Of a stretch of 64,000 nucleotides of DNA, positions 1-53,600 are shown one piece after another; the stretch's first letter is position 1; each line of letters begins with the position of its first letter. Source of the DNA: Chitinophagales bacterium (GTDB lineage: Bacteria > Bacteroidota > Bacteroidia > Chitinophagales > Saprospiraceae); contig JAKSDI010000207.1 in NCBI GenBank assembly GCA_022360175.1, positions 1 to 64,000 on the forward strand, given 5' to 3'. The notes beneath the pieces were generated by a model. The model was not told the DNA's origin. It saw only the letters and a list, made by a program, of their open reading frames with translations, and did not search any database. The translations under genes were made by a program, and so were the position numbers.

Positions 1-2560
1 AAGCCGGGAAACTATTTCCTACCTCTACGTAATCAGGTGTATTGTCACCATCCGTATCCTGGAAGTCATTGATATCGTTTGGATCCGTATTCTCGGCTAG
101 TTCTACGCCATTTGGAACACCATCGCCATCCGAATCATTGGTAGAATCCTGGAAGTCGGCGATGCCATTATTATCCATATCAAATGAGCCTTCTACCATA
201 CCGTCCACATTTCCAATCGCATCATTATTATCATTGTCATCCAGGTAAGCGGGGACACCATCGCCATCCACATCTGCATATGGATCGGAATTGGTCTCCA
301 CACCATCCACTACACCGTCACCATCCGCATCGGAGGTTGGGTAAGATGTTGTTACTTCTACGTAATCCGGTATACCGTCATGGTCACTATCCTGGAAGTC
401 AGTACCATCGTTTGGATCGGTACCTTCTGCATTTTCTACGTCGTTTGGTACGCCGTCCCCATCTGCATCATTTGATGCATCCTGGAAGTCAGCTATTCCA
501 TTACCATCGGTATCAAAAATGCCTTCTGGCAAAGCATCCACATTACCAATACTATCATCTGTATCATCATCATCCAAATAAGCTGGAATGCCATCACCAT
601 CTACATCTGCATATGGGTTGGAAGGGCTTTCACCTCCATCGACAACGCCATCTTCATCTGCATCTCCTGCAGGATAAGGTGCGGTGGTTACTTCTTCATA
701 ATCTGAAGTGCCATCACCATCGCTATCCACGAAACTGAGCGGATTATTTGGATTGGTGCCTTCGCCAAGTTCTATGTTATTTGGTACGCCATCACCATCT
801 GAATCATTGGCAGGGTCCTGGAAATCAGCGATACCATTACCATCTGAATCGAATAGAGGCTGAACCAAACCATTCAAATCACCAATAGCAGGATTATTAT
901 CATTATCGTCCAGATAAGCAGGGGTACCATCGCCATCGGCATCGGCATATGGATTATTACCTCCAGTTTCTGTACCATCATTAACACCATCGCCATCCGC
1001 ATCGGAAGTAGGATAACTGTCACCTACCTCTACATAATCAGGGATATTATCATTATCACTGTCTACAAAGTTGGCTCCGTTGTTTGGATCGGTACCTTCT
1101 GCAACTTCTACACGATTTGGTACACCATCGCCATCACTATCGCTATTCGGATCAGTGAAATCGGCAATGCCATTATTATCTGGATCAAAAGCAGGTTCTA
1201 CCTGGCCATTATCATTACCAATGGCAGGATTGTTCTCGTTATCATCCAGATAAGCAGGGACGCCATCATTATCTGCATCGGCATATGGATCAGAAGGTGT
1301 TTCATTGCCATCTGTTGAACCATCACCATCGGCATCTCCTGTTGGATAAGGCCCGGCAGCTACCTGAACATAATCAGGAGTGCTATTGCCATCACTATCC
1401 TGGAAATCATTGATATCGTTTGGATCAGTACCTTCTGCTGTTTCCACACCATTAGGCACACCATCGCCATCTGTATCATTAGTTGGCTCGGTGAAATCGG
1501 CGACACCATTGTTGTCTGTATCAAAAGCAGGTTCTATCTGGCCATTTAGGTTGCCAATAGCAGGATTGTGATCGTTATCATCCAGATAAGCTGGAATTCC
1601 ATCTCCATCGGCATCGGCATATGGATCAGACGGGCTTTCATCTCCATCAGCAACACCGTCATTATCGGCATCTCCTGTCGGATAAGGGCCGGCAGTTACC
1701 TCCACATAATCTGGAGTGCCATCTGCATCGCTATCCTGGAAGTCATTCACGTCATTTGGATCGGTATTTTCTGCTAATTCTACATTATTAGGCACGCCAT
1801 CGCCATCGCTATCACTAGATGGATCGAGGAAATCGGCGATACCATTATTATCTGTATCAAAAGCAGGCTCTACCTGGTTATTTGTATTACCCAGAGCAGG
1901 ATTGTTGTCGTTATCATCCAGATAAGCTGGAACACCATCTCCATCTACATCGGCATATGGATTGGAAGGCGTTTCATCGCCATCGGTGACACCATCATTA
2001 TCGGTGTCTCCTGCAGGATAAGGCCCATTGGCCACTTCAACAAAATCAGGTGTATTATCGCCATCGCTGTCCTGGAAATCGTTGATATCATTTGGATCGG
2101 TATTTTCTGCGGTTTCTACACCATTAGGAACACCATCACCGTCGCTATCATTGTCTGCTTCCTGGAAGTCAGCAATACCATTATTATCATCGTCAAAAGC
2201 TGGTTCGACCATTCCATCCACATTGCCGATCGCATCATTATTGTCATTATCATCCAGATAAGCTGGAATCAAATCACCATCTGCATCAGCATAAGGATCA
2301 GAATTGGTTTCTACCCCATCTACTACGCCATCATTATCGGCATCAGAAGTTGGATAGGCTGTGCCTACTTCTTCATAATCTGAAGTACCATCGCTATCGC
2401 TATCTACAAAGCTGCTACCATCATTTGGATTGGTACCTTCTGCAGTTTCTATAGGATTAGGTACGCCGTCACCATCTGAGTCACAATTGATATTATCAGT
2501 CGTAGGGGTACAAGGATCATTATCATTGGGGTCGTCAATATCGTTGACACCATCCATATC
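1..2560 (-). repeat. TSP3-type tandem array, ~333-bp / 111-residue period
   Basis: Part of the giant gene. A unit containing [39 protein letters not shown] and IPAYLDD recurs about every 333 bp (for example, matching codons at ~61 and ~394), giving about seven and a half copies inside the window and continuing off the left edge. Asp/Asn spacing matches calcium-binding thrombospondin type 3 loops. The expected role is a rigid calcium-stabilised stalk. Confidence 0.85.
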
Positions 2561-5500
2561 ATCATCTCCGCTCCAGAAGCTGGCACCATTATCAGTTGTA
2601 CCATTTCCAGTATAACAGTAATCTGGTGTACTGCTAACAAATTGACCTGCTGTCCAAATGCCCTTCGCTACGGCTACACTTTCACGGCCATTACCTCCTG
2701 TTTCCCATTGGGTAAAGTCGATCATGTAGTTTTCGTCAGAAAAGTCTGTCGTACCTGTGCGGTACAGACCAAGGTCAGCACCATTTTCATCCAGGTTAAT
2801 TTCCGTAAGGCTAAGGGTAACTGTTGCCCCCGGAGCCAGGTTAAGGAAACCAGCTGTCACTGTTTGACTCGCCAAATCGGTGGTATAGCTAAATGCTGAA
2901 CACAGGCGATAGCCGGAGATATCAACGATACCTGTACCAAAGTTTTTGAGGACTACTTCTTCCGTTACTGGATTCACACAAAGCAAGCGTACACCATTAT
3001 CATCTGAATCATCACGATAATCTACATCGCCGCCTGTACTAGCGTCTGAATCGGTATCTGGAAGCGTTGTTGGATCATCCAGGCTACCATTTACATCAGC
3101 GTAGGTTTCACCTGCATTGATATTACCTGATTCTGTGGCATCATCTGCACCTTCGTTGTCCGAATCCGTATCTAAGTAATCTGGATTATCAGCACCATCT
3201 GTATTGACAGGTGTGAGGCCACCACTATAAGCATTGTCTACACCATTGGCATCATAGGTGCCTGATGGGGCGATGTAGCCTGCGGTAGTTTGAGCTTCTA
3301 CGTTGTCCGGGATACCATCGTTATCAGAGTCTAAATCAAGGTGATCGTACACATTATCCCCATCGAAATCTGCTAAACAATTTGATTCGCCTATACCAAT
3401 TGCATCTATTGTTCCCCATTGACCAGCACCAATAACGGTCGTATTACCAACTGGTACACCAGAAGCATTTAGGAGAGCATATCTTAGGTTTCCATTGAAA
3501 AGCAATTGATAAATCCTATTTGTACTTCTGTCAATGCCGATGCTCTCTACATCAAACCATAGTGAAGTGCCTATGACGGTCGTTGGTGATCCTGTAGGAG
3601 TGCCACTCGCGTTCAAAGGAAAATAAACCACACTATCGTCATTTAATAATGCATAAATACGATCATTGTCCTCATCAATAGCTATCGCTTCCGTGGTCGT
3701 CCATAGCCCTGGTCCAATAAGTGTAACAGGACTGCCTGTTGGAACCCCAGCAGGAGTCATATCGTAGCGTACTAGGGAGAAATCATTCCATAATACATAC
3801 ATCCAGTCATTATCTTCATCAATGGCAATATCTAATGTAGTTGTCCACAGTCCAGTGCCAACTGCAGTACCAATATCGGAACCAGTAGGAGTTCCAGTGC
3901 TACCAGGCAAAGGCTGATAATCTACACCAGCATTTTCCATATAGAATATTTGCGTCTCACAGCCTTCGTTTACATCCAGTATCCCATCATTGTCATCATC
4001 CAGATCATCCGCATCGGCTACGCCGTCCATATCGGTATCCGTGCTATCATCTGTATCATCCTGAAAGTCCGCAATACCATCGCCATCACTATCCGGTAAG
4101 GTAGAAGGATCATCCAAACTACCATTTACATCCACATAAGTTGGGTTGGCATTGATATTACCTGATTCTGTGGCATCATTCGCTCCTTCATTATCCGAGT
4201 CAGTATCCAGATAATCCGGATTGTCGGTTCCATCTGTATTGACAGGTGTCAAGCCACCACTATAGGCATTGTCTACTCCATTGGCATCATAGGTACCTGA
4301 TGGGGCGATATAGCCTGCTGTGGTTTGAGCTTCGATATTGTCAGGGATACCGTCGTTGTCGGAATCGAGATCGAGGTGATTGGCGATATTGTCGCCATCT
4401 GTATCAACAAAGGGACGACCCGCCCAATAACCATCATCGGTGCCGTCCCAACCACCAGCGGCATCACCATGATCAGTGGTATTGGACTGTGCAATAAAAT
4501 CGGCTATCGTTGGCCAGGAGAATACATGAGCACCAGCACCATTCGCTATTGCATACAGTACACCATCTTCGCCCATCCAATAACAATCATCACTGCCGTC
4601 CCAACCACCAGCTGGGTCACCGTGATCAGTAGTATTGGACTGTGCAATGAAATCTGCTATAGTCGGCCAGGAAAATACATGTCCAGTAGTAGATTGATTG
4701 ATTCCATATAATACTCCATCTGGCCCCATCCAGTAGCCATCATCCACACCATCCCATACTCCGCCAGCAACATCTCCATGATCTGTCATATTGGACTGTG
4801 CAATGAAATCTGTTACCGTTGGCCAGGAAAATACATGGGCGGTAGCTCCTCCTTGTATACCATAAATTCTGCCAGTCACCGGGTTCATCCAGTAAGCATC
4901 ATCTACACCATCCCAAGCACCAGCAGGATCACCAAGGTCAACGCCATTGGTTTGAGCTACCAGGTCAGCAACTGTTGGCCAGAAGAAAATATGGGCACCT
5001 GGTCCATTTGCAATAGTATAAATGCCTTGCTGAGCCTCTTCATCATCCAATATCCCATCATTATCATCATCGAGGTCATCCGCATCGGCTATGCCATCCA
5101 TATCTGTATCTAATGCAGGCGTATTAAAAATAGCATCCCGATAATCCACTTCCCCATCACTATCACTATCTGATAAAGTTGTTGGATCATCCAAACTACC
5201 ATTTACATCTGCATAAGTTGGATTGGCATTGACGCCAGCTTCTGTCGCATCATTTGCTCCTTCGTTATCTGAATCTGTATCAATGTAATCTGGATTATCA
5301 GTTCCATCTGTATTGACAGGTGTCAAGCCACCACTGTAAGCCATGTCTACTCCATTAGCATCATAGGTGCCTGATGGGGCGATGTAGCCTGCTGTGGTTT
5401 GGGCTTCGATATTGTCGGGGATGCCGTCGTTATCGGAATCGAGATCGAGGCGATTTACAATACCATCTCCATCACAATCATAATATAAACCTATCCCCCA

Positions 5501-8500
5501 ATTATCGCTACCAGCATTGGCGATGGATTGCATCATTGCTACATCCGTAATAGTCTGGATAAGCTGTGGATTGGAAGCTCCAGTCATCGGGTCAAAATCG
5601 TAGCTATACAAGTTACCGCCATGATAGCCATACAATTTGTTACCGATAATACCTACTCCCCAGTTGTCCTGACCATCGGTAGAGATAGATTGAAACATCA
5701 TATTATCGCTGATCGTTTGAATCAGCGTTGGATTTGAAACACCTGTTTGGGGATTAAAATCATAACTATAAATACCAATGCCATTATAGCCGTATAACTT
5801 ATCCCCTATTATTCCAATACCCCAATTATCATCACCATTAGAAGTAGGTTGAAAAACAAATGCATCTGTAAATGTTTGAATTGCAATTGGATTAGAAAGC
5901 CCTGTTACTGGATCAAAGTCATAGCTATACAAAGCAATTCCATTGTAACCATACATTTTTCCTTCTACAATCCCGAATCCAATATTATCATCTCCATCAG
6001 GCGTAACCTGCAGCATTGCTGCATCATTTATAACCTGAATCGTATTCAGATTGGTGAAGCCAGTAGCAGGATGGAAGTCATAGGTATGTACAGCACCTCC
6101 ATGATATCCATAAAATACACCTTTTCCAGATTCTTCAACAGCATCCAATATCCCATCATTGTCATCATCAAGATCATCCGCATCAGCTATGCCATCCATA
6201 TCCGTATCGGTAGAAACGCAAACTATTTGTCCGGAACAATTATCATCATCACAATCAGTCAATCCATCGCCGTCATTATCTATACCATCAGAGCAATCTG
6301 TTTCTAATGCAGGACATTCTTCACCAAAAATAAAGAAGCCATCTGCTCCTTCATCATAGTAGTGAGCAGGTAAGCCATAGGATGCATCAGCAGCATTCCC
6401 CAGGAAGCTAGCCAACGTATTATATTCTAATAGTTGGCCTACACCGGGGCCTACGCGATATATCTTACCTCCACCAGCAAAAACATCATCGGTTGGCTCA
6501 TCGTAATAATGAGCAGGAATGCTATAGGAAGCATCAACTGCATCTGATACAAAATTTGATAGATTATCGTATTCGTATAAAGTAGCTGTACCTGGCCCTA
6601 TGCGGTATATTTTACCTTCAAATGCGAAAAAACCATCTGCTGCCTCATCATAATAGTGAGCAGGGATAGGGTAAGTCGCATCATGATTGTCCGATATATA
6701 GCTTGCCAGGCTGTTGTACTCGTGTAACAAACCTACACCTGGACCTATGCGATATATTTTGCCTGCATTGGCAAAGTTATCATCTGTTGGATTATCATAA
6801 TAATGGGCAGGTAAGCTGTTGCCAGCAATTCCAGCATCAGACACAAAACCAGATAGGTCATCATAGGTTATTAAATTACCTACTCCGGGGGCTATGCGGT
6901 AGAAATTCAGATCGCAAAACTCTACACCATCTCTAAAATCTACTTCACCATCCCCATCACTATCCGATAAAGTTGTTGGGTCATCCAGGCTACCATTCAC
7001 ATCAGCATAAGTTGGATTGGCCGTTACACCACCTTCTGTAGCATCATCTGCACCTTCGTTATCTGAATCGGTATCCAGATAATCTGGATTGTCTGTACCA
7101 TCTGTATTGACAGGTATCAGGCCACCGCTATAAGCCATATCTACTCCATTGACATCATAGATGCCTGTTGGGGTAATATAAGCTGCTGTAGTTTGAGCTT
7201 CGATATTATCCGGAATGCCATCGTTGTCGGAATCGAGGTCTAATCGATTTGCTAGTCCATCGCCATCAGTATTGTTATCCGTGATATAATACCCGAAGTG
7301 GGCAGCACCATTATTACCTATACCTAACTCAAGACCGACGTTTTTAGCATTAATCGTATTATCTACATTAGCTGCAGTAAGGGAAGTGACAGTTCCAGTG
7401 TTCAGGTTTTCCAAATCGATGGTTCCACCATTGATATAATAACCATAGTGAGCAGCGCCATTGTTTCCTATACCAATTAGAGTGCCATTCGAATGGGCAG
7501 CAATCGTATTATCTACATTAACTGCAACGAGGGAAGTGACCGCTCCGGTATTCAGGTTTTCCAAATCGATGGTTCCACCATTGATATAATAACCAAAGTG
7601 ATCGGCGCCATTGTTCCCAATACCAATTAGGTTGCTATTCGAATGGGCATTAATAGTATTATCTACATTAGCTGCAGTGAGGGAAGCAACTACTCCGGTA
7701 TTGAGATTTTCCAAATCAATGGTTCCTCCATTGATATAATAACCAAAGTGATCAGCGCCATTGTTCCCAATACCCAAAAAGGTACCATTATGCAATGCGG
7801 CAATGGTATTATCAGAATTGTTGGACAATAAAGTGGATACAGCACCAGAGTTTAAATTTTCTATATTGACGGTGTTCCCTCCTTCTACCACATCCAATAT
7901 TCCATCGTTATCATCGTCCAGATCATTTACATCGGCTATGCCGTCCATGTCCGTGTCAACAGGCGGAATGGCCGGATCCATACTAAACGTAAAATAATCG
8001 CCATCATTAAAATCCACACTTGCTTCATAATTACTTCCGTTTGTGGTTAGGTCAACAGCCCGGTCTACTGTACCAAAGTTGGGATCAGAAGCGTGAATAA
8101 TAATACTTTGTAATCCTGCTGCTGTCGCCGTAGGTATTTGTATTAATACACTGCCTACTGTATTGGTTTCCTGTACTTTCCATACTCGAGTCAATCGATT
8201 ATTAGTTCCTCCATCGTAATTGGAGCTTAGTGTGGCTGCTGCGCCATCATTGCCCCAGAGCATAAAGCTTTGGTCTGTACTAAAGTTGTTTGGGTTGGAG
8301 GCATTATCTATTGCGACCGTCACATTTCCAATAGTGACTAAAGTATTTGCGTTTACTGATTTAGACTGCTTTTGGTCGAGGCCCTGTACATCGTCACGGC
8401 CAATACCAGCCACATCATTTGTATAGGTACTATTGCCCGTGGCATTCCATATTACGCTGCCGTCTCCCGAATAATAATTCGTGGCAATTGTCTGATCTAA

Positions 8501-11500
8501 AGTAACGCCATATTTTAAAGCTAAATACGATTCTATTTTTTGGCGTTCTGTTGTAGATAGTTTTCTATCGTAAAAAACAATTTCCGCGATCTGACCATCA
8601 AATGTCCAGTCTGTCCGATTTGGACCAACACCGCCTATAGCAGTTGATGTAGCACCTGTATTATGGTCTACGATTGGCGCATTAGACACAACCGGCTCTC
8701 CATTAAGGTATAGAGAAGCCCCTGTTGAATTGGAATGTTCAAAGTTGGTTGTATGCACAAAGGGGATTCCAGTTGTAGTTGCATCACTAGTATAAGGCTG
8801 GTTTCCTCCACCCGTTCCATAATGCGTTGCACCTGCCCAACGATCACCAAACACATCATTCCCCCAAAGGCCGATAGCCCCTGTTCCTACATCCAACTGA
8901 TAGACTATAAAGGTGGTCAGTGGATCAAAACCGGCAGATATTGCATTAATATCTAATGGTGTTACTAGCTCATCCCTACTTTCGGGATAATCGATGGTAG
9001 GATTGAAGTTGAAATTTGAATTGGTTCCATCTACAAAAATAGGTTGCTTTGCTACATCTCCCTGGACTGCATCTTTTCCATTGCCGCTTTGGTCCAGCCA
9101 GAAATCTACCATACTCCCATTAGATGCACTTGTTCCGCCAGCGAGAACGCCTGCATCTGCCCTTCCCCAAAACTGCATATTGGCAGCTACGCCTCCTGGA
9201 GCTGTCAGCTCTCTACCAAAGGTAAAGAATTGCCCATTTGTAAGATTTACTGTAGCGACCATATTACCATTACCATCATCAACCATTGCGATTTCAGTTG
9301 GCGTACCTGTTGAAAAATCGGCACTATTGTGGATTAATAAATGATCTGCTCCATTCAGTGCATGTATTGTCACTACACTTACTGTTCCAGTTTCCTGCAC
9401 TTTCCAGATACGATCCATATGGAAATAGCCCGCAGCGGGTGTGAAGCTATTAGGGGTGTAAGTGGTGCCATAAGATATAGTACTGCCGTTATGCCCCCAT
9501 ATCAAGAAGCTTTGGTCCGCAGTAAAGGAAGTAGCATTGCTAACATTATCGGCGGGCAGGCCGCCACTTTGGTCACCATTATAGATAGCAACCACGCTAC
9601 CGCCATTTACAGATTGGGATTGTTTTTGACTGAGCCCCTGACAGTTGTCGCGGCCAATGCCTGCGACATCATTGGTGTAGGCTGCATTAGCCGTAGCATC
9701 CCAGATCGTATTACCTGCACCATCCAGGTAGTTGGTGGCTATCGTTTGATCCAGGGTGACTCCATATTTTATAGCTAAGTAGGATTCTACCTTTTGGCGT
9801 TCGGTAGCAGTCAAATCTGTGGCATAGAAAACTACCTCGGCTATCTGTCCGTCAAAAGTCCAATCTGCACGATCAGGACCAACTCCGCCAATCGCGGTCA
9901 TTAGATCGCCTGTATTATATTCGCCAGTGTTGGTATTGGGAATCAATTGTTCTTCCCCATTTACCCATATCGATGCTCCTGTTGCACTAGATTCTGCCAA
10001 TTTTGAAGTATGAATGAGTGGAAGCCCCGTTACATTAGCACCGCTATAAGCTGTTCCGCCAGCGCCACCTCCCAATCCGTAATGGGTCGCCCCCATCCAT
10101 CGGTCTCCAAAATCATCATTTCCCCAAAAGGCTATGTTACCTGTACCAACATCCAGTTCATACACAATAAAAGCCGTAAGAGGGTCAAAGCTACCTGAAC
10201 CAGAATTGATATTCAGTGAGGAGACCAACTCATCCTGGCTTTCTGTATAATCCATAGTTGGATTAAAATTGAAGTTACTGCTGGAGCCATCCACGAAGGT
10301 AGGTTGTTTATTGGCGTCTGCTTGTGTGGCATGATTCGCATTTCCACTCTGGTCATTCCACTGGCTAACCATTCCGCTTTCGGTAACGCCTGCATCTGAT
10401 TTGAACCAGGCTCTTAGGTTAGTGGCTACACAGCCTGGTGCTTCAATCTCATTACCGAAGGTGAAATATTGTCCATCTGTAAAATCAACCGTGGCTACCA
10501 TATTGCCACTACCATCATCTGTAAGGGCAATTTCTGTAGGAGAGCCACTACTAAAGTTGTTGCTATTGTGCACTAATAAATGATCGGCACTTGCAGGTCC
10601 TTTTACAGTGACTGTTCCTACTGTTCCCGTTTCTGCTACTTTCCAGATGCGATCCATGTGGAAATAGCCCGCTACCGGAGTAAAGCTGTTAGGAGTGTAT
10701 AATGCTCCATAAGATGCAGAGCTATTATTATTACCCCAAACAAGAAAACTTTGATTCGTAAACGAAGAGGCATTAGAAGCATTATCAATTGGCAGACCAC
10801 CACTTTGGTTACCATTATAGATAGCGAGAATTGCATCCGAATTAACTGATTTAGATTGTTTTTGGTTGAGACCGGAAGCATCATCGCGACCAATACCAGC
10901 TACATCGTTGTGATAAGATTGATAAGCAGCATCAGTAGTTCCACTCCAAATGCTTGTCCCTGCTGAGTTCAAATAGTCATAATTAACAGTCGAACTTGCA
11001 GGATCATTGTCCAGTGTCGTTCCCCACTTAATAGAGAAATAGGAATTGACTCTCTGGCTTTCGGCAGGTGTAAGATTACGACTATATACAGCTACTTCTC
11101 CAATGGGGCCATCCCAAACTTCCACTGCCTCATAGGAACCGATTTGGAACTGATCTGCTGCAGGAGCACCATTGGCAAAGCTGCTTTCTCGAATTTCCAT
11201 GTCGGCCACTGTATTCACCTGCCCATCAAAAATTACATCCAGGCCAGTATTGCTCAATACATTGGATGGTTCATTGGCCATATCCCACTCCCAACTCCAG
11301 ATATGGAATTGACCAGAGACAGGATCGGCGGGATGATCATTTCTAATTGGTGAAGAACCATTACAATAGCCTAAAGGCTTGCCTGTAGCTGCTGCTGTAC
11401 CTAAATGGGGATTATCAATACCAAATACGACAAGGTTGTCAAAACCAGTGCCAGGAGTATTATTAGCCGCTGCACTAAATACCGAGCCGCCAGGCTCTAC

Positions 11501-14500
11501 ACCCGTCATAAATGGAGCAATTTCCATTCCGTCATTTGAACCATCAAATGTTACCGTAGGGTTGAAATTGGAAGTAATAGCCGGGTCGGTATAAAATGGA
11601 TCTCGATTAGCTGCGGTTACCGACATATCATTACCATTCAAACTTTGGTCCATCCAGGTATTGACTGCCGTACCATTTGTAGTAGAGCTGGTTCCAGCAT
11701 CCCCTTTAACCCATAGTTGTAAGCTTCCAGCTACCCCACCAGGCGCTGTTAATTCAGCACCAAAAGTAAAGTACTGCCCATCTGTAAAATCAACCGTGGC
11801 TACCATATTGCCACTGCCATCATCCGTAAGGGCGATCTCTGTGGGTGAACCACTGCCAAAGTTGTTGCTACTGTGCACTAATAAATGGCTTGCATTATCA
11901 GGCCCCTGTACGCTTACCGTACCTACGGTGCCTGTTTCTTTGACTCGCCAGATACGATCCATGTGAAAGTAGCCAGCGGCTGGAGTAAAGCTATTGGGGG
12001 TATAGGAAGTTCCGAAAGAGGCAGCACTATTATTATTTCCCCACATCAGGAATGATAAGTCGCTGGTAAAGGAATTGACGTTGGAAGCATTATCATCTGC
12101 AAGGCCATTGCCAATACCAATAGTTACAATAGCGTCCATACCATTAGCTGGTGTATTATCTTCTACCGATTTAGATTGTTTTTGATGAAGTATACTAGCA
12201 TCATCCCGACCAATACCAGCTACATCGTAATGATAAGCCATATTGGCCGTATAATCCCATATTTTGGTGCCATTGGAGGCTACATAGTCACCTTCCGTAA
12301 TCGTGGCATCGCTATCTACTGTACGTAGGGTAAGCCCATATTTTAGAGCGAGATAGGAGTTTACTTTTTGCAAATCCGCACTGCTTAATTTTTGAGCATA
12401 TGAAATGACTTCCATGATGCGACCATCCCAGTCTTCTCCTCCTCCATCTGATCCTACATCTATTGTATTACCAAAATTGGCATGGTTCACCTGTTCCAGA
12501 TTAGTAGATACCTCTTCACCCTGAAAGCTAAAAATAAGATCATCTGCCACACCATTCAAAGCACGCATGCTCCATATCATTGGCTTTCCTATTGGTAGTT
12601 GATTATGGAAAAAGTCCTGATGAGCAGGAGAACTTCCATCCAGCCAGGGGCTAATCCAGGTTCCTTCCAAATCCATCGTAGGATCATTTCCATTATCACC
12701 ATAGGAATAAATAGTCCGGATTCCTCCAGTTACATCTGTTGCTCCAACAGCGATCATAGTAAAATCATCACTTGTCTGTACAACCTGACCTAAATTGGTT
12801 AAAAAATCATCATTAAAATCCAAAGCGGGGTTAAAGTTGGTTACTTCGGAGCCGTCAACATAAGTAGGTTGTTGAGAAGCGGTCGTTTGGCTCAGATGCA
12901 AGGATTGACCAGATTGATCATTCCATTGCTGTACAGAGTTGCCATCGGTAGCTGGGGTCGTACCAGCATCAGAAAAGACATCCATATCTGCTTTTGACCA
13001 GTGGGCGAGAGCGGTGGTGACGCCCCCAGGAGCATTTACTACTCCTCCCTGCACAACACCGGTTGTCGTATTACTCAATTCGGAGGTATTACCTGTAGCT
13101 ACGTCAATCGCTAATGCCGCAAAGTTGTCGCCGGGATCGGCAGTGACATTTGTGAATGTATAAGAACCGTTGCCACTACCATCGGTCATAAAAGTGCCAG
13201 CAGCATGATAGACCTCAGCTTCGCCATGATTGGATGCATCTGCACCAGAGGGATTGCTATAGAGCTCGATTTCGAAACTGGTATTGGCAAGTCCCTGATA
13301 GTCGAAAGAGACATCTACCGTACCATTACCATAATCGGTGATGGTATTGAGTACTGGGAAGTTTAAACGGCCATTGCCACCCGCATCGGTATCGTTGACA
13401 TCGTTATTGCTGACTCCGTCTTGAGCAGATCCTGCATAAAGATCAATACCAACAGCTACATTTCCGAAAAGGATGTTTTGACTCAAGCGATTACCGGTAG
13501 AAGGTGACCAGATAGCAATACCAGCTAGCGTACCAACGCCATTATAGGCCACTGTATTACCTTCTACGACGTTGTTATCCGAACCATCTCCGGTTGCCAA
13601 AGTTCCTCCATCAAAAATAATGCCGCCATTGCCATTTCCGAGGTTTGTTGTGGTTGCCATCGCGCCAACAGCGCCCGTCACATCTGTGCCAAATAGATTG
13701 CCGGCTATGCGGTTGCCGTCGAGAGACGTCCCTGTAGCCTCGGTAAAGCGTATACCGCCCTGCCCATTACCAGAGATGAGATTCCATTCGTTCGCATCGT
13801 TAACATTATCGCCATCATTACCAATGATATGCCCCCCCGCAGGCCCAGTCGCTGCAGCGGTTGTAACAATGCTGATTCCTCTACCAAAGTTTCCCTTATC
13901 GCCATATGTAAAAAATGGAATAGCACCGCCCAAAGCAGTACCCGTGATATCAGTGCCAATAAAATTGCACTGAATCACCGAGGAGCTAACATTCGTAAGC
14001 GCGATGCCAGTGCCATCGAAATTTCGGATCACGAGGCCCTTAATGACGGGACCACTGGTATTCGTAACAAGGATACCTACCGTTCTGCCTCCATCACCAC
14101 CACCGTCTAGCTCCACAGTTGGAGCTCCACAAGCAGCACCGGGCGCACTTAGCCCATCTATAGTCACGTCTGCTACCGTAATAGCTGGCAGATTAGAAGC
14201 GAGCGCAATTGTCCCAGCTACACTGAAGTTAATGGTATGTGGACCGTCTCCAGCAGCATTGGCATCGGTAATGGCTTGTCTGAGAGAACCGGGGCCACTA
14301 TCGTTGGTATTGGTGACCGTGAAGGTAGCTACCACTGCGGCAGCATTAGTATTGACATCTGCACCACCAGCTGCTGGAGGCTCTGCTGCCGTCCATAACG
14401 AAAAATGCTCAATCCCATCAAGATGGATTGAGTTATTGAGTGGATCAACTACACTATTTCTGTGCGGTGTCCAGGTTTTACCATTATCAGTTGAAGAATA

Positions 14501-14905
14501 TAGAATGAGCTGATTTTCATCCAGCCCATTAAGGTCATCCTCATCATACTGAAAAGCCAGTTGAGCCTGTAAAGTATGATTGCGGGCAGGATGAATACCT
14601 ACTACTTTGTTGATAGTCTTCATGCCTTGTATAGAGGTTGTTTGCTCATACAAGTCAAATTGAGTAAGGCCTATCGGTTCGGGATTAGACAGATTAATAC
14701 CAATTTCTGGTATAAACAGATCACATTCCGTTTCCAATTTCAGCGATTCAAAGGACAAATCTGCTGGCTCATTGAAAATAGAATCTGATTCCCTATTCAA
14801 AAGAGTGATGCTCAATAAAGTGAGTAACAAGCCTGCAAAAGCTAAGCCGGCATTGATACCTACTTCTTTTGATATCCCTCTGTCTTTAGTTAAAAATGAA
14901 ATCAT
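1..14905 (-). CDS. Giant exported multidomain surface protein (beta-helix, DUF8202-like, 4x50-aa modules, TSP3), C-terminus outside window
   Basis: One uninterrupted minus-strand frame runs from an ATG at 14905 past the left edge (at least 4,968 codons). I checked the frame at the start, near 3940 and near 88. A hydrophobic segment at residues ~17-37 should be a signal/anchor. In order: parallel beta-helix opening with a [12 protein letters not shown] motif (~196-526); four tandem blocks (~625-2307) with DQSGN, AGIGRDD and [11 protein letters not shown] motifs, as in laminin-G-like/DUF8202 proteins; five four-repeat modules between TSP3 stretches (~2340-3845); a lamin-tail-like domain (~3968-4088); then Asp-rich TSP3 repeats of ~111 residues to the window edge. 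TSP3 DxDxDG loops bind calcium in known proteins. I infer a T9SS-exported adhesin or sheath-like filament; the sorting domain would lie outside the window. No partner gene is adjacent. Function is not established. Confidence 0.9.
2645..3005 (-). other. Lamin-tail-like (LTD) domain within the giant protein
   Basis: Encodes a ~120-residue stretch with the LTD pattern: [20 protein letters not shown], then [12 protein letters not shown], and a late TQWETGGNG segment. In known proteins LTDs are immunoglobulin-fold modules, common in large secreted bacterial proteins. It separates the five-module region from the C-terminal TSP3 array. Confidence 0.6.
3385..3975 (-). repeat. Module E: four ~50-residue repeats
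   Basis: Four consecutive units in the giant protein. Each carries a PxGxP(T/V)G(S/N) turn, a TVIGxGLWxTxxxIxID core and an NDRIYxLxxD strand. The unit is specific to this module and not found in the other four. TSP3 stretches containing [11 protein letters not shown] and [11 protein letters not shown] flank it. Confidence 0.7.
4400..5035 (-). repeat. Module D: four ~50-residue repeats
   Basis: Four units sharing [29 protein letters not shown] and DDxYWMGxDGxLYxI. Repeats two to four are nearly identical at the DNA level, which suggests recent amplification or gene conversion. TSP3 stretches flank the module. Confidence 0.75.
5475..6127 (-). repeat. Module C: four ~53-residue repeats
   Basis: Four units sharing [18 protein letters not shown], SNPxxIQTxTD and [13 protein letters not shown]. 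The period is about 160 bp. The aromatic strands and Asp/Gly turns look like beta-propeller blades. Confidence 0.75.
6330..6920 (-). repeat. Module B: four 49-residue repeats
   Basis: Four units at a steady 146-147-bp spacing, each with [16 protein letters not shown], NLxxFVSDAxDASY and [13 protein letters not shown]. Immediately downstream is a [18 protein letters not shown] metal-binding stretch before the next TSP3 segment. Confidence 0.75.
7265..7870 (-). repeat. Module A: four 50-residue repeats
   Basis: Four units at exactly 150-bp spacing (the same ten-base block starts at about 7281, 7431, 7581 and 7731). Each contains [26 protein letters not shown] and a VDNTIxAHSN segment. Even spacing with in-frame identity shows a recent in-frame expansion. 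Confidence 0.8.
7985..13050 (-). repeat. Four tandem ~415-435-residue blocks (laminin-G-like/DUF8202 type)
   Basis: Blocks begin near 13035, 11745, 10440 and 9205, each at an APGGV motif. Each has a WxKxDAGxxxxxG opening, a DQSGN turn, FNPTxDF, a [19 protein letters not shown] strand, [11 protein letters not shown], and a C-terminal half with [15 protein letters not shown] and DGQYFTFG. Blocks of this kind are common in large secreted Bacteroidota proteins and are thought to be concanavalin/laminin-G-like carbohydrate-binding folds (family knowledge). Confidence 0.75.
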
Positions 14906-44711: not shown

Positions 44712-47700
44712 ATGAAAAGAATATTACCTTTTCTGCTGCTCCTTGCCACCATTAGCTTGCAGGCTCAGCAAATTGAATTTGTCAGTCAGGATAATGAATC
44801 CATTACCCTGCGTTGTCAGCTTACTGACTTTGAACTAACCACAGTGAATACTCCACAAGGAGAAGCCGTACAGGTAAACATTCAGGATGGTACCCCTCTT
44901 CTGAAAGCAGGAGCTCCAGAAGTTCCTAAGCTAACTGCTTCATACATCCTGAAGCACTTCCAATCAGGTAAAGTAAAAATCCTCAGCAGTGAGTACACCG
45001 ATTATGAAGATATTTTATTAGCCCCTTCTAAAGGTAATCTGTATCGCGATGTAAACCCTTCTAGTATTCCCTATGAATTTGGGCCTGTTTATGAGCAAGA
45101 TGTATTCTTTCCAAGAGAATTGGTAAAAAAGCAAGCGCCCTACGTGTTTAGAGATTATCGTGGCCAAACTGCACAGTTTTTTCCAGTACAATACAATCCA
45201 GTACAACAAGTACTAAGAATTTATGATGAGATTGTAGTTTCTATCGAACTGGAAGAAGACGCATCTTTACTAGCAGCCGAAAATGTAAGAGCTAGCAGAA
45301 ACATTCCAGAACCCTATCACTTCCTCTATGAAAAGCGCTTTTTAAACTATCAAGATGAAAGCCGTTATGATCCTGTTGGAGAGTTGGGTAGTATGCTAAT
45401 TATAACTACAGAAACTTATACTCCACAGATCGAGGACATGGTACGCTGGAAAAACCAAAAAGGTATACCTACAGAAGTAGTGCTAATGTCTGAAATTGGC
45501 GAAAGCCCGGAAGCTGTACTTTCTTTTATAAATGAATACTATCAAAACAATGGGCTGACTTACCTATTGATTATTGGTGATGAAAATGATGTACCAACTC
45601 AGCAAACAGCTCAGCAAAATGCATGTGACCACTGCTATGCGCAGCAGGAAGGCAACGACCACTATCCAGAATTTTTTGTTGGTCGTTTGAATGCAGAAAA
45701 CCCAGAGCAATTACAAGTTATGCTCGATCGAAACATGCTATACGAGTTAAATCCTGGCATGGATAACCCTGACTGGTTCTCAACCGCTCTCGGTTTCGGT
45801 TCAAGCGAAGGCCCTGGTGATGACGACGAATATGATTATGAACACCTTAATAATATTAAGTCTAGCCTGCTAGATTATGGATTTAGCCACGTTTATGAAT
45901 TCTATGATGGTAGCCAGGCCAGTAGCTCCCCTACTCCTGGTGATCCTACTGCCGATGCTGGTGGCAACCCAAATGCTGCTATGATCAATGAGGTAATCAA
46001 TAATGGTGCTACTTTAATGAACTATACTGGCCATGGTGATCATGGTATTCTAGTCTCTGGTAGTTTCAATAATACTGCTATTAATCAGTTGACCAATAAT
46101 GGTGCTTATCCATTCCTTATTGCAGTTGCCTGCTGTGTAGGTGATTTCCAGAACGACTTTGGATCAGGCCCTTGTCTTGGTGATACCTGGATACGCGCAA
46201 CCGATGATGCTACAGGATTGCCTTCAGGAGGTATCGGAGGGTGTTTCTCCAGTATCTTACAAAGCTGGGCTCCTCCTATGGAAGGACAGGATGAAATGAA
46301 TGCTCTGATAGTAGAAGCAGGCACTTATGATATTCGCCATACAATGGGTGGTATCGTTATTCATGGTGGTGGTGCAATGATTGATGCTTACGGCGGTGGT
46401 GGAGATGAAATGATGGATACCTGGAACATTTTTGGTGATCCTTCTATCGCTTTATGGACACGTACTCCTGAAGCACTGGTAGCAGACCATGTAGAAGCTA
46501 CATTTATAGGAGCGACACAGCTTGAAGTATCTTGCAATGTTGAAGGTGCATTAGTAGGGCTTTATTATGAAGGCAAAAATATAGCTTATGGCGTAGTAGA
46601 AGGAGGTTTTGCCAATCTGGACTTCGAAGCATTAGAATTCCCTTCTCCTCTTACAGTAACTGTAACCGCTTATAATCACCTTCCTTATCAGGGAGATGTA
46701 CAGGTTACTCCTCTGGAAGGCCCATATGTAATTTTGTCTGAATATGAAATTGATGATACAAACGGTGGCAACGCCAATCTGGTAGTAGACTACAGTGAAA
46801 CAATTGATCTTAATGTCACCATGTCTAATGTAGGATTAGATACTGCACGTGCCGTACAAACTACAATCAGCACTGACGTTGAAGAAATTACACTAATCAA
46901 TGATACATTCGTTTGGGGAGATATCGCCAATGAAGAAGCAATGAGCCAGGATGCTGCTTTCTCTTTCTCTGTTGCTGACTATATTGTAGACCAAATGGCA
47001 GTACCTTTCCAGCTAACAACAGTAGATGAAAATGACAATACCTGGACACGTAATATTTCTGTGATCATCAATGCTCCAGTATTAGAATTAGGTGCTATTA
47101 CTGTTGATGATGCGATCACTGGTAATGGCAATGGCAGATTAGATCCAGGTGAATCCGTAAATATTATCATCGAAAATCTGAATGTAGGGCATAGTGATTC
47201 TCCAGAGGCATTAGCAGTTCTATCAACTACTAATCCATATATCGAAATAGTAGGAAACAATCAATCTGTGGGTGTTATTTCAGATAATAGCTCAGCAGTC
47301 TATACTGTAAATGTTGCACAGGACATTCCAATAGCAACAGTTATAGAAATGGAATACCAGCTGACTGCAGGGCCTTATGGACTGAATGCGCTGCCAGTAT
47401 TAAGTGCCAACCTACTGATAGAAGAATTTGAAACTGATAATCTGGAAACTGATATTTACGGATGGAATAATAATGAAGGCCATCCTTGGTTCTTAACAGA
47501 TTTTGAACCATATGCTGGCGCTCAATGCTTGCAATCTGCAGATATTGAAAACTCTCAAATTTCATCAGTCAAGATGGATATCAATATATTAGAAGATGGG
47601 CAGATGACATTCTCTCGCCGTGTATCTTCTGAAAGCGGATGGGATTTCCTATACTTCTATATGGATGGAGAACAGCTAGGAGAATGGTCTGGTGAAGAGG

Positions 47701-48137
47701 CTTGGGAAGAAGTTACCTTCGATGTACCTGCCGGAGAACATGGTTTTGTATGGACTTACTTCAAAGACCAGTATATCTCTGACGGCATGGATGCTGCCTG
47801 GATAGATGACATCATTTTACCTCCTTTTGAAACGCTGGATACAACCACTATTAATAGCATAGAAGAATTAGGACTTACTGATATCCGCTTGACCATAGCT
47901 CCTAATCCTGTTAAAGAAACTGCGATTATTAATTATGAGTTAGGACAGGCACAAACTGCTAGTCTATTTTTGATAAACAATCAAGGTATTGTATTGAATA
48001 CCTTAACAGCTCCTGCTGAACACCTAAGAGCCATTCACCAAGTCAAGCTGGAAATGGATACTTATCCTGCGGGACTATATTATGTACTACTTAGAACAGA
48101 AAATGGCACTAAAGTTGCCAGAGTCGTGAAAGAATAA
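44712..48137 (+). CDS. Gingipain-like C25 cysteine protease, T9SS-secreted
   Basis: 1,141 residues. Signal peptide 1-19, C25 propeptide (~25-200), then the caspase-like catalytic domain (~225-600) with His441 in NYTGHGDHG and Cys474/Cys475 in AVACCVGDF, as in gingipains. Ig-like and CARDB-like domains follow (~680-900), then a galactose-binding-like domain (GWDFLYFYMDGEQLGEWSGE, ~970-1050) and a T9SS sorting domain (LTIAPNPVKETAIINYEL). Substrate specificity (Arg or Lys) cannot be read from the sequence. Likely a surface or secreted protease for nutrient acquisition or maturation of other T9SS cargo. Confidence 0.93.
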   Translation: MKRILPFLLLLATISLQAQQIEFVSQDNESITLRCQLTDFELTTVNTPQGEAVQVNIQDGTPLLKAGAPEVPKLTASYILKHFQSGKVKILSSEYTDYEDILLAPSKGNLYRDVNPSSIPYEFGPVYEQDVFFPRELVKKQAPYVFRDYRGQTAQFFPVQYNPVQQVLRIYDEIVVSIELEEDASLLAAENVRASRNIPEPYHFLYEKRFLNYQDESRYDPVGELGSMLIITTETYTPQIEDMVRWKNQKGIPTEVVLMSEIGESPEAVLSFINEYYQNNGLTYLLIIGDENDVPTQQTAQQNACDHCYAQQEGNDHYPEFFVGRLNAENPEQLQVMLDRNMLYELNPGMDNPDWFSTALGFGSSEGPGDDDEYDYEHLNNIKSSLLDYGFSHVYEFYDGSQASSSPTPGDPTADAGGNPNAAMINEVINNGATLMNYTGHGDHGILVSGSFNNTAINQLTNNGAYPFLIAVACCVGDFQNDFGSGPCLGDTWIRATDDATGLPSGGIGGCFSSILQSWAPPMEGQDEMNALIVEAGTYDIRHTMGGIVIHGGGAMIDAYGGGGDEMMDTWNIFGDPSIALWTRTPEALVADHVEATFIGATQLEVSCNVEGALVGLYYEGKNIAYGVVEGGFANLDFEALEFPSPLTVTVTAYNHLPYQGDVQVTPLEGPYVILSEYEIDDTNGGNANLVVDYSETIDLNVTMSNVGLDTARAVQTTISTDVEEITLINDTFVWGDIANEEAMSQDAAFSFSVADYIVDQMAVPFQLTTVDENDNTWTRNISVIINAPVLELGAITVDDAITGNGNGRLDPGESVNIIIENLNVGHSDSPEALAVLSTTNPYIEIVGNNQSVGVISDNSSAVYTVNVAQDIPIATVIEMEYQLTAGPYGLNALPVLSANLLIEEFETDNLETDIYGWNNNEGHPWFLTDFEPYAGAQCLQSADIENSQISSVKMDINILEDGQMTFSRRVSSESGWDFLYFYMDGEQLGEWSGEEAWEEVTFDVPAGEHGFVWTYFKDQYISDGMDAAWIDDIILPPFETLDTTTINSIEELGLTDIRLTIAPNPVKETAIINYELGQAQTASLFLINNQGIVLNTLTAPAEHLRAIHQVKLEMDTYPAGLYYVLLRTENGTKVARVVKE

Positions 48138-49527: not shown

Positions 49528-50115
49528 TTAAATTCCCATGTTAATAAAACCAATATCATTCCAAATATCATCTAATATAGATACTTCCAGTAAACCACCA
49601 TTACCAGCGTAATTAGAAGCACTACTATACATGTAATATTCTGGTTCAGTTACGATTTTTGCTTTAACAGGATTGAGGTGAATATAAGCAAGTTTTTGTC
49701 TTATTACTTTTGGAGAGTATAAAGCGATGGGATGATTATCATGCCTCCAAACCTGATGTTTTCTTCCTGTCCTATTCTTTCTTGCATTGAATGCAAAATG
49801 ATTCAATAACCATTCTCTTCTACTTTCGGGATAATTCCAATCCTGGATGCGATTCAATATTTCCTTTGCAGTGAAGGATTTGAATTGCTGAAGAATTGTG
49901 GAAAGTCCTTTTTTTTCATCAGTTCTTGCAATGAGATGAATATGATTGGACATGATTACATAAGCATTAAGAATCAGCCCTTTTTCTTTTTGACAGAATC
50001 GCAGGCTATCTATTACAATATCGCGATACGTAGAATTGGAAAAAATATCAATCCACTCTACAATTCTACAAGTCAGGAAATTGAGACCTTGTTGGTCAAG
50101 TATTTTATATCTCAT
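49528..50115 (-). CDS. REP-associated tyrosine transposase (RAYT, IS200-like Y1)
   Basis: 195 residues. The HUH metal motif is HIH in IMSNHIHLIART. The catalytic Tyr is expected in the YYMYSSASNYAGN segment near the C-terminus, preceded by YIHLNPVKAKIV, a standard RAYT signature. These enzymes cut and join single-stranded DNA at REP hairpins and act as domesticated single-copy transposases. The gene is flanked on both sides by identical 40-bp REP-like repeats (49375-49414 and 50363-50402), and a MITE copy lies directly upstream. It appears intact. Confidence 0.92.
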   Translation of the reverse strand: MRYKILDQQGLNFLTCRIVEWIDIFSNSTYRDIVIDSLRFCQKEKGLILNAYVIMSNHIHLIARTDEKKGLSTILQQFKSFTAKEILNRIQDWNYPESRREWLLNHFAFNARKNRTGRKHQVWRHDNHPIALYSPKVIRQKLAYIHLNPVKAKIVTEPEYYMYSSASNYAGNGGLLEVSILDDIWNDIGFINMGI

Positions 50116-50633: not shown

Positions 50634-53600
50634 ATGAGAAAAGCTATACTACTACTTACTGCCAATTTATTGGCATACACTGCTTTTAGTCAATTTACTT
50701 TTACAGATGCTACCGACAATCTACAATATGGCACGCTACGTAGTGGTGCACCAATGGCGGTTGCAGATATGAATGGAGATGGGCTCGATGATATTGTATG
50801 CCTGGATGATCGGCAATTCTTATACATCGAATATCAACAAGCAGATACTTCTATTTTCGAAGGTGTATACTATGATAATCTTGGAAGCATACAATGGAGT
50901 ATCTGTGTAGCTGATGCAGATGGCAATGGATACAACGACATTTTCACAGGCGGGCAGTATAATGGATTAAGTTTGCTTTTTGCCAATACCGATGGCTCTG
51001 ATTTTCAGCCTACTATTATTACTAATCCATCTATTTTTCTACAGGGTTCTAATTTCGTAGATATTAATACGGATGGTTATGCTGATATTTTTGCCTGTCA
51101 TGATGATGCAATAAGTGTTCCGTTTGAAAATGATGGCAACGGTAATTTCACTTCTAATTTCAACCTTATCAGTGCCGTTTCAACAGTTCCTTCTGATAAT
51201 TCGGGTAATTATGGGTCAGTATGGACTGATTATGACAATGATCGCGACCTGGATCTTTACATCACTAAATGCCGACTAGGGGTAGATGATCCAACCGATG
51301 GGCGGAGATTAAATCTGCTTTTCCAAAACGATGGCGATAATAACTTCGAAGACGTTGCTGCTCAGGCCAATCTTTTACCCTTTGGCCAGAGTTGGGCATC
51401 CGATTTTGGAGATATAGACAATGATGGAGACCTCGATTGTTTCATTATCAATCACGATATAGCCAACTCCCTTTATCGCAATAACGGAAATGGTACTTTT
51501 TCTAATGTTTCACTCCTATCGGGAATCAATACGGAGCTTTCAGGGTCGGGCCTGGGTATGCAAATTAAATTTGTAGATTTTGATAATGATGGCTTTGTAG
51601 ATATACTGTATACTTCTTTGGCTACCATCCATGCAGTACTCCACAACAACGGAGATGGTACTTTTACCAAAGTAGATGATGCTTTTCCAATCGATGAACG
51701 CATCCATAGTGCAACGGTAGGTGACCTCAACAACGATGGGTTTATGGATGTATATGCGGGGTATGGATTTGGGTATAATCAAGTAAGTAATCAACACGAT
51801 CGTTTATTTCTAGGGGTACCCAATGACAATCACTACTTCAAAGCACTTCTAAAAGGAGTAAGTTCCAACCCCAATGCGATTGGGGCCAGATTAGAAATCT
51901 ATGGTGATTGGGGCAAACAGATTCGTGAAATAAGAAGCGGAGAGAGTTATGGTATCATGAGCAGCTATACCAGCCATTTCGGATTGGGAAGCAGCAATAC
52001 TATTGATAGCCTTTATATTTATTGGCCTTCCGGCAATACGGATCGCCTGATTAACCCGCCTGTAGATACCACCCTTATGATTACAGAGGGGCAATTCTGC
52101 CTACCAATGGCTGATTTCACCTATACCTCACCAGGGCTTAATGTGACGCTTACAGCTACCGGAGATGTAGGAATTACCGACTGGACATGGACTTTTGAAG
52201 ATGGTACTATCATGACTGGCAATGAAGTGACTTATGCCTTCCCCAATCCCGGTTTATATGCCGTGTGCCTGGATACTGATGGTAGCTGCGGACCAGCTCA
52301 ATCTTGCCAGATTGTAAGTGTTCAATGTACAACTTTAGAGGCCTTTTTCACCCATCAATCTGATGGCCTGGATCTTTCCTTTGAAGATTTTTCTTTAGGA
52401 GGCCCTTCACAATGGACCTGGGATTTTGGCGATGGGAATTTTTCTAATGAGCAAAGCCCTAATTATGGTTATGCTATGCCCGGTAATTACTTTGTATGCC
52501 TCACAGTTGAAAATGATTGTGGCAATGCAGGTTTTTGCGAATTCATTCAGGTTGAGTGCGGAAATGTGACCACTGCTTTCGATAAAGAGATTAATGATTT
52601 AGAAGTCGAATTTATCGATTTCTCATCGGCTGGCACAACCTCATGGGCATGGGATTTTGGCGACGGTAATATCTCTGATGAACAAAACCCAACCCACAGT
52701 TTTGCCGCCCCTGGCACCTATGAGGTATGCCTTTCAATAGATGGCGTATGTGGTAGTGGAGAGACCTGTGAATCAATATCTGTCTCGTGCTCAGTACCAG
52801 AATCTTCTTTTCTTGCTTTCTCAAATGAATTGGATGTAAACTTTCAGGATAATAGTCTGCATGTACCCACTCAATGGGCATGGGATTTTGGCGATGGGAA
52901 TACCTCCAGCGAACAAAGCCCTATGCACACTTATGATTTACCAGGTATTTATACCAGTTGCCTAATTGTATCCAACGTATGTGGAATAGATACTTTTTGC
53001 AGAGATTTAATTATTACCTGTAATGCTCCGGAAGCCGGGTATGATATATTGGCAGATGGCCTTGCTTATACATTTACTGATACCTCCTCCAATCAGCCAA
53101 CAGAACGATTATGGATTATTGATGGTGAAGATAGTTTTGATCTAGCTGAATTTGATTACCAATTTGCAGCACCTGGAGATTATGAGGTTTGCCTGCAGGT
53201 ATCTAACATATGCGGTGCAGATACCCTCTGCCAGATTATTAATGTAAACTGCGCAGAGCCACAAGCTGCTTACTCCTTTTCTTCTAATGAACTGATCTAT
53301 ACATTCACAGACACATCTAGCGGCGGGCCTACAGATTGGGAATGGTATATCGATGATCAGTTTGTCAGCAATGCCGCTATATTTGATTATACATTTTCAG
53401 ACATAGGAATTTACGATATCTGCCTCATCAGTAGTAGCATTTGTGGAAGCGATACACTTTGCGAACCATTACAAGTGAGCTGCACTATACCCGATGCTGA
53501 TTTCACCTATAATATCAGTGGTCTCAGTGTTGATTTCACAGATGCCTCTACCCATAATCCTACTGGCTGGCAATGGCTGATAGAAGATGCTTCGGAAAGC

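Follow-up and report, generated by a model that had tools for sequence, protein, structure and literature searches.

The window analysed here, 64,000 nucleotides at the start of contig JAKSDI010000207.1 (G000:C180) of a Saprospiraceae genome (Chitinophagales bacterium, GCA_022360175.1), carries a giant gene, P0001, whose product contains five repeat modules, A to E, at residues 2341-3841. Each module spans 194-219 residues and consists of four tandem units. We consider it probable that A to E are small four-bladed beta-propellers set between TSP3 loops that likely bind calcium, and that they would serve a giant, likely surface-exposed protein as interchangeable heads for binding. The modules, listed in the order in which they are encoded, are:

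7283-7885, minus strand: module A, four units of 50-51 residues, a predicted four-bladed propeller
6326-6916, minus strand: module B, four units of 49-50 residues, homologous to D and outside the common TSP3 frame
5477-6133, minus strand: module C, four units of 53-56 residues, no homologues found
4421-5032, minus strand: module D, four units of 49-52 residues, with homologues in B and in one module of protein P0045
3383-3964, minus strand: module E, four units of 47-51 residues, blades 2-4 modelled as propeller-like, no homologues found

With unit boundaries cut by hand, pairwise identity between the units of a module was 60-82% in A, 43-67% in B, 47-63% in C, 51-78% in D and 33-49% in E, with medians of about 71, 57, 54 and 65% for A to D and of 40% for E. 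The best self-identity at offsets of 40-69 exceeded that of all 2000 shuffles in each of the five modules. These results confirm the layout given in the preliminary description, five modules of four tandem units of about 50 residues, with unit lengths of 47-56 residues. At the DNA level, unit pairs were 54-85% identical in A to D and 44-50% in E, with many synonymous differences, and the units are therefore neither fresh duplicates nor an assembly artefact of identical copies.

The modules are separated by TSP3 linkers, and the same TSP3 motifs flank A, C, D and E on both sides:

7892-7924, minus strand: 11-residue TSP3 motif before A, from sequence
6143-6175, 5045-5077 and 3974-4006, minus strand: 11-residue TSP3 motifs before C, D and E, respectively, from sequence
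6917-7282, minus strand: TSP3 linker A-B, from sequence and linker search
6134-6325, minus strand: linker B-C, TSP3 motifs and a cysteine-rich acidic stretch
5033-5476, minus strand: TSP3 linker C-D, from sequence and linker search
3965-4420, minus strand: TSP3 linker D-E, from sequence and linker search
2996-3340, minus strand: TSP3 linker past E, from sequence and linker search

The earlier proposal that all five modules sit in one TSP3 scaffold thus stands for A, C, D and E and fails for B, which has neither flanking motif: it is preceded by ...VDFRDGVEF, and then comes the cysteine-rich acidic stretch (6134-6325), the sole break in the cassette frame, which scored 34.5 bits as acid_disulf_rpt, under the cut-off of 41. 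The TSP3 loops are likely to bind calcium and stiffen the stalk. In the genome of origin, neither the modules nor the cassette linker had a match outside the P0001 gene. The linker is widespread in the phylum, with matches in 31 of 395 genomes, its own counted (L088, L091 and L100 among the others).

The modules had been described as five non-homologous or very diverged domains; lack of homology among all five is not supported, B and D being homologous. The alignment of these two stays in phase through the four units (phmmer domain E-values of 1.8e-4 and 4.8e-4; hhalign probability 90, E-value 1.6e-6) at 19% identity. In hhalign comparisons between the window families only the B-D link was significant, A, C and E showing none to any other, and B-D homology therefore leaves four detectable unit families in the window: A, B with D, C, and E. 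No Pfam family scored above its cut-off in any of the modules.

Relatives were sought with the cassette region, which retrieved 456 proteins; the best 120 of these were used and, having been chosen by likeness to P0001, they form a non-random sample to which the following counts refer. Profiles of the window units detected eight A-type units in P0037 (source name Runella sp.), in two sets of four, and four of D type in P0045; family profiles found no further A or B/D units above noise in the best 120. Unit profiles of C and E matched P0001 only, with four units each. P0079, from a Saprospiraceae metagenome-assembled genome, is an orthologue of P0001, sharing its N terminus as well as the VRLLCVNP domain and TSP3 array (68.6% identity over 1187 columns). 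It keeps the stalk and differs in its heads, the same cassette holding a six-unit VCBS insert and two four-unit modules of another type, F; the type F profile has no significant match to any window family. Across five proteins, all 13 modules contain four units (10 modules if the paralogous pairs of P0037, P0098 (A type) and P0079 are each counted once), and all 13 measure 223-237 residues from TSP3 motif to TSP3 motif. Copy number had been named beforehand as the check, and all eight homologous or same-site modules outside P0001 have four units.

Broader searches yielded little. The concatenated modules found no homologue in 197 genomes of relatives, nor was one present among 7988 scored proteins of 558-1776 residues. 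Against 394 other genomes of the phylum, the A profile had no match and the B/D profile a single 65-residue match (E-value 8e-4, genome G322), in which the unit profile gave noise only. Pattern scans of genome contigs returned 40 and 99 stretches, none confirmed as a homologue, and a search with E among 3004 giant candidates recovered E itself only. No unit profile, VCBS included, rose above noise in 127 inserts of 120-600 residues (40 stretches from 28 of 30 other linker-positive genomes), self-similar inserts among them being judged from offset and first residues only. The four-unit modules are therefore rare.

Structural prediction supports the proposal that the units are blade-like. The model of module A has 16 strands in four sets at a mean predicted local distance difference test (pLDDT) score of about 85, and is the only one of the five to show tandem four-stranded antiparallel blades. 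Its predicted strand order, a pair of strands at the N terminus, then three whole blades, then a pair at the C terminus, fits a ring closed within one blade; ring closure, in A and in the other modules, is inferred. The neighbours listed in a fold search with the A model were propellers, 14 of the 50 rows being of hemopexin type. The model of E contains three sets of four strands, with blades 2-4 propeller-like. We graded the predicted fold as good for A, partial for E and weak for B, C and D. Of the earlier claim that the modules are four-bladed hemopexin-like propellers, the likeness in fold is supported for A by its confident model and propeller neighbours, while kinship to hemopexin by sequence is not, no Hemopexin profile match having been found. 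A viral fold library gave one match at E-value 1e-3 or below, to a WD40 protein over nearly the whole of an A-C model at a root-mean-square deviation of 30, and was uninformative.

Several observations weigh against reading the modules as closed four-bladed propellers. The best Z-score for A is 7.5, in the middling range by the tool's own scale; Foldseek alone found no match for the A model in the PDB at E-value 1e-3 or below; and olfactomedins, which are five-bladed, score equal to hemopexins for this model. In E, the first unit falls below a pLDDT of 50, and the best fits are arcs of six-bladed YWTD propellers. Models of B, C and D are of low confidence (average pLDDT about 50, 45 and 60, respectively), and the fold search covered A and E. 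As to copy number, family profiles refined by hand alignment counted four units, no more and no fewer, in all 5 A-type and all 4 B/D-type modules, but these profiles were built from the very hand-cut units that they count. P0098 (Fibrella aquatica) has strongly diverged first units: there the profiles made from the window gave only three plus four partial A-type hits, and the remaining units were assigned by alignment.

Inserts of five and six units, moreover, occupy the same kind of TSP3 site. Among 689 inserts (150-420 residues between TSP3 motifs, in the best 120 of the 456 proteins), 59 had a self-similarity z of at least 8. Besides the 13 four-unit modules, these include five VCBS/FG-GAP inserts, one in P0060 that is doubled (period 152) and one in P0082 that is propeller-like; the remainder are mostly repeats with best periods of about 90-120. 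The VCBS inserts (one in P0037, three in P0045, one in P0079) have five whole units by profile and one split between the two ends, making six, a count read partly by eye. Diverged five-unit propeller-like inserts, designated type G, are found in P0082 (1078-1306) and its relative P0087 (69-300); they are not detectably related to the four-unit families, the best match being to a tachylectin-like unit (E-value 0.0011, probability 21). The TSP3 site accepts four, five or six units, whereas each unit family seen keeps to a single number.

Within P0001, a unit of A, B or D has its nearest relatives in its own module, in comparison with the A- and B/D-type units found. A units average 71% identity within the module and 42% to P0037 units, whether at the same or at different positions. 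Such a pattern is read in PMC9218822 as recent independent amplification; homogenisation by recombination would give the same pattern. Because A, B and D units are more alike inside their module than elsewhere, blades have likely been multiplied or homogenised module by module. The pattern is absent from P0098, where each unit of one A module resembles the unit at the same position in the other (54% against 24%), and the B-like units share only 21%.

On evolution, the main rival, to which we give somewhat less than an even chance, is that the number four was simply inherited: all the types (A, B/D, C, E and F) would descend from one old four-bladed superfamily that has drifted past detection, its units homogenised, and four would not have been newly selected. 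The still detectable homology of B and D at their low identity fits this account, as do the positional match of the P0098 A modules and the divergence of its B-like units, as in old rings, and a similar [KR][IL]Y strand that by eye opens the units of several families. Against it, the profiles of A, C, E and F link significantly neither to B/D nor to one another, and the A units of P0001 do not match those of P0037 position by position.

On mechanism the main rival, which we regard as unlikely, makes each four-unit module a half ring, two modules or molecules pairing into an eight-bladed propeller. Four-bladed WRAP fragments crystallised as dimers forming eight-bladed propellers, as reported in PMC6805158, and the E model, with its closing blade unmodelled, resembles an arc of larger, six-bladed rings. 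Unit sequences and module numbers differ, though (five modules in P0001, one in P0045), so that pairing between modules is not obvious, and the hemopexin-type rows among the A neighbours also argue against half rings. Open arcs or short solenoids are very improbable: despite the low-confidence models of B, C and D and the incomplete model of E, all 13 modules have four units, fold searches with the models of A and E return closed propellers, and the chain ends of A supply both halves of one blade.

If the modules are closed four-bladed propellers, each unit of 47-56 residues would be one blade, and in module A the ring would be closed by a blade shared between N- and C-terminal strands. The modules sit between likely calcium-binding TSP3 loops of a likely surface-exposed giant protein; blades would be multiplied or homogenised inside each module while their count stays at four; the propeller faces may bind glycans or proteins; and orthologues such as P0001 and P0079 would keep the stalk and exchange the heads. 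PMC6805158 gives four to twelve blades as the range for propellers, and these families of very similar units hold exactly four copies, at the bottom of that range, although the cassette elsewhere holds five- and six-unit inserts. If the rings are closed, nature would here offer a means of testing how ring size is fixed, and an example of a giant surface protein that keeps its stalk while its heads vary by module and orthologue. We tentatively propose, at roughly one chance in three, that the modules record a ring-size experiment, in which unrelated blade families, separately multiplied in one calcium-stalk cassette, all stopped at four. Four blades would then be an end point that propellers outside the hemopexin lineage have reached repeatedly, here in a modular surface protein that swaps heads.

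The remainder of the giant gene comprises the following features:

2-14905, minus strand: giant open reading frame P0001, 4968 residues, ATG start
2-2509, minus strand: array of bacterial TSP3 repeats reaching the contig start, from Pfam and comparison with P0079
2510-2992, minus strand: domain that opens with VRLLCVNP, resembling a lamin tail by eye and retained in the orthologue P0079

The frame runs from 14905 to 2 and is still open there, and its 3' end is missing because the window begins at the contig start. The tail of P0079, used to seek the missing part, matched four other contigs; an open reading frame on contig C284 was considered and reads as a different, non-TSP3 protein. TSP3_bac was the sole family in a Pfam scan of P0001; PF26628.1, assigned to it in a protein database, is absent from the local scan output. 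The VRLLCVNP domain has matches in 25 of 396 genomes of the order, its own counted, and since the best other identity is 48%, no close orthologue is present among them. Upstream of the modules (about 7946-13048, minus strand; about residues 620-2320) lie four more long repeats, each ending in 16-residue motifs and then ...KQSKSV. Type IX secretion system (T9SS) tails score above cut-off in three neighbouring genes and occur in several relatives of P0001 (precomputed domains), which suggests that P0001 is a secreted surface protein. Elsewhere in the window are a gene for a peptidase of family C25 (gingipain-type; 44712-48137, plus strand) with its own propeptide and, scoring below cut-off, a sorting tail at the C terminus, a gene for an IS200-like (Y1_Tnp) transposase (49528-50115, minus strand), and a second large gene (50634-56534, plus strand; 1966 residues) with FG-GAP, ASPIC/UnbV, many PKD repeats and a T9SS tail.

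Among known propellers, the hemopexin-like family (PF00045), termed 4-bladed in PMC3797127, shares with the modules four units of about 50 residues and the structural rows obtained for A; the window modules differ in their near-identical units and in the lack of a Hemopexin profile match, for A to E up to E-value 10 (HMMER filters dropping most hits above 0.1) and for the modules of four relatives up to E-value 1. Tachylectin-2-like propellers (PF14517; PMC8023676) resemble B and D in a short helix per unit, and the B/D profile aligns in register, over GGW...LYAV, with 3kif, an engineered lectin; tachylectin-2 has five blades, B/D-type modules four units each. The 3kif alignment was not significant (E-value 0.12; hhalign 0.027), a profile of D-type units only had no match in the PDB, and the Tachylectin profile had none in A to E; in the genome of origin PF14517 matched only another contig, C177, below cut-off. 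VCBS/FG-GAP inserts (P0037, three in P0045, P0079) share the kind of insertion site and have one unit split between the ends, with six units in five of five (one read partly by eye); FG-GAP matches occur in P0037 and none in P0001 or in A to E. Other candidates were set aside: kelch for C, on a single weak match (E-value 0.0089); one DUF1842 chain for module A alone (E-value 1.1); and CtGH76-type chains, the only hits of type F (E-value 0.22). Sequence searches of solved structures returned nothing for E or for the A-type profile, and the B-like module of P0098 had a subthreshold olfactomedin match (E-value 0.023).

Amplified propellers, four-bladed hemopexins and bacterial four-bladed propellers are already known (PMC9218822, PMC3797127, PMC3192720); our searches of open-licence PubMed Central listed no description of a TSP3 cassette on which near-identical four-unit modules are exchanged. 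The closest comparison is with the amplified propellers of PMC9218822, which likewise consist of tandem near-identical blades, and to which A, B and D of P0001 correspond in having units nearest their own module. The 60% median-identity mark of that survey is reached by A and D and not by B, C and E. The survey gives median blade numbers of 7 for WD40 and 6 for VCBS, and describes for young symmetric propellers a continuum of blade numbers with no counting system, in contrast to the four units found here in 13 of 13 modules.
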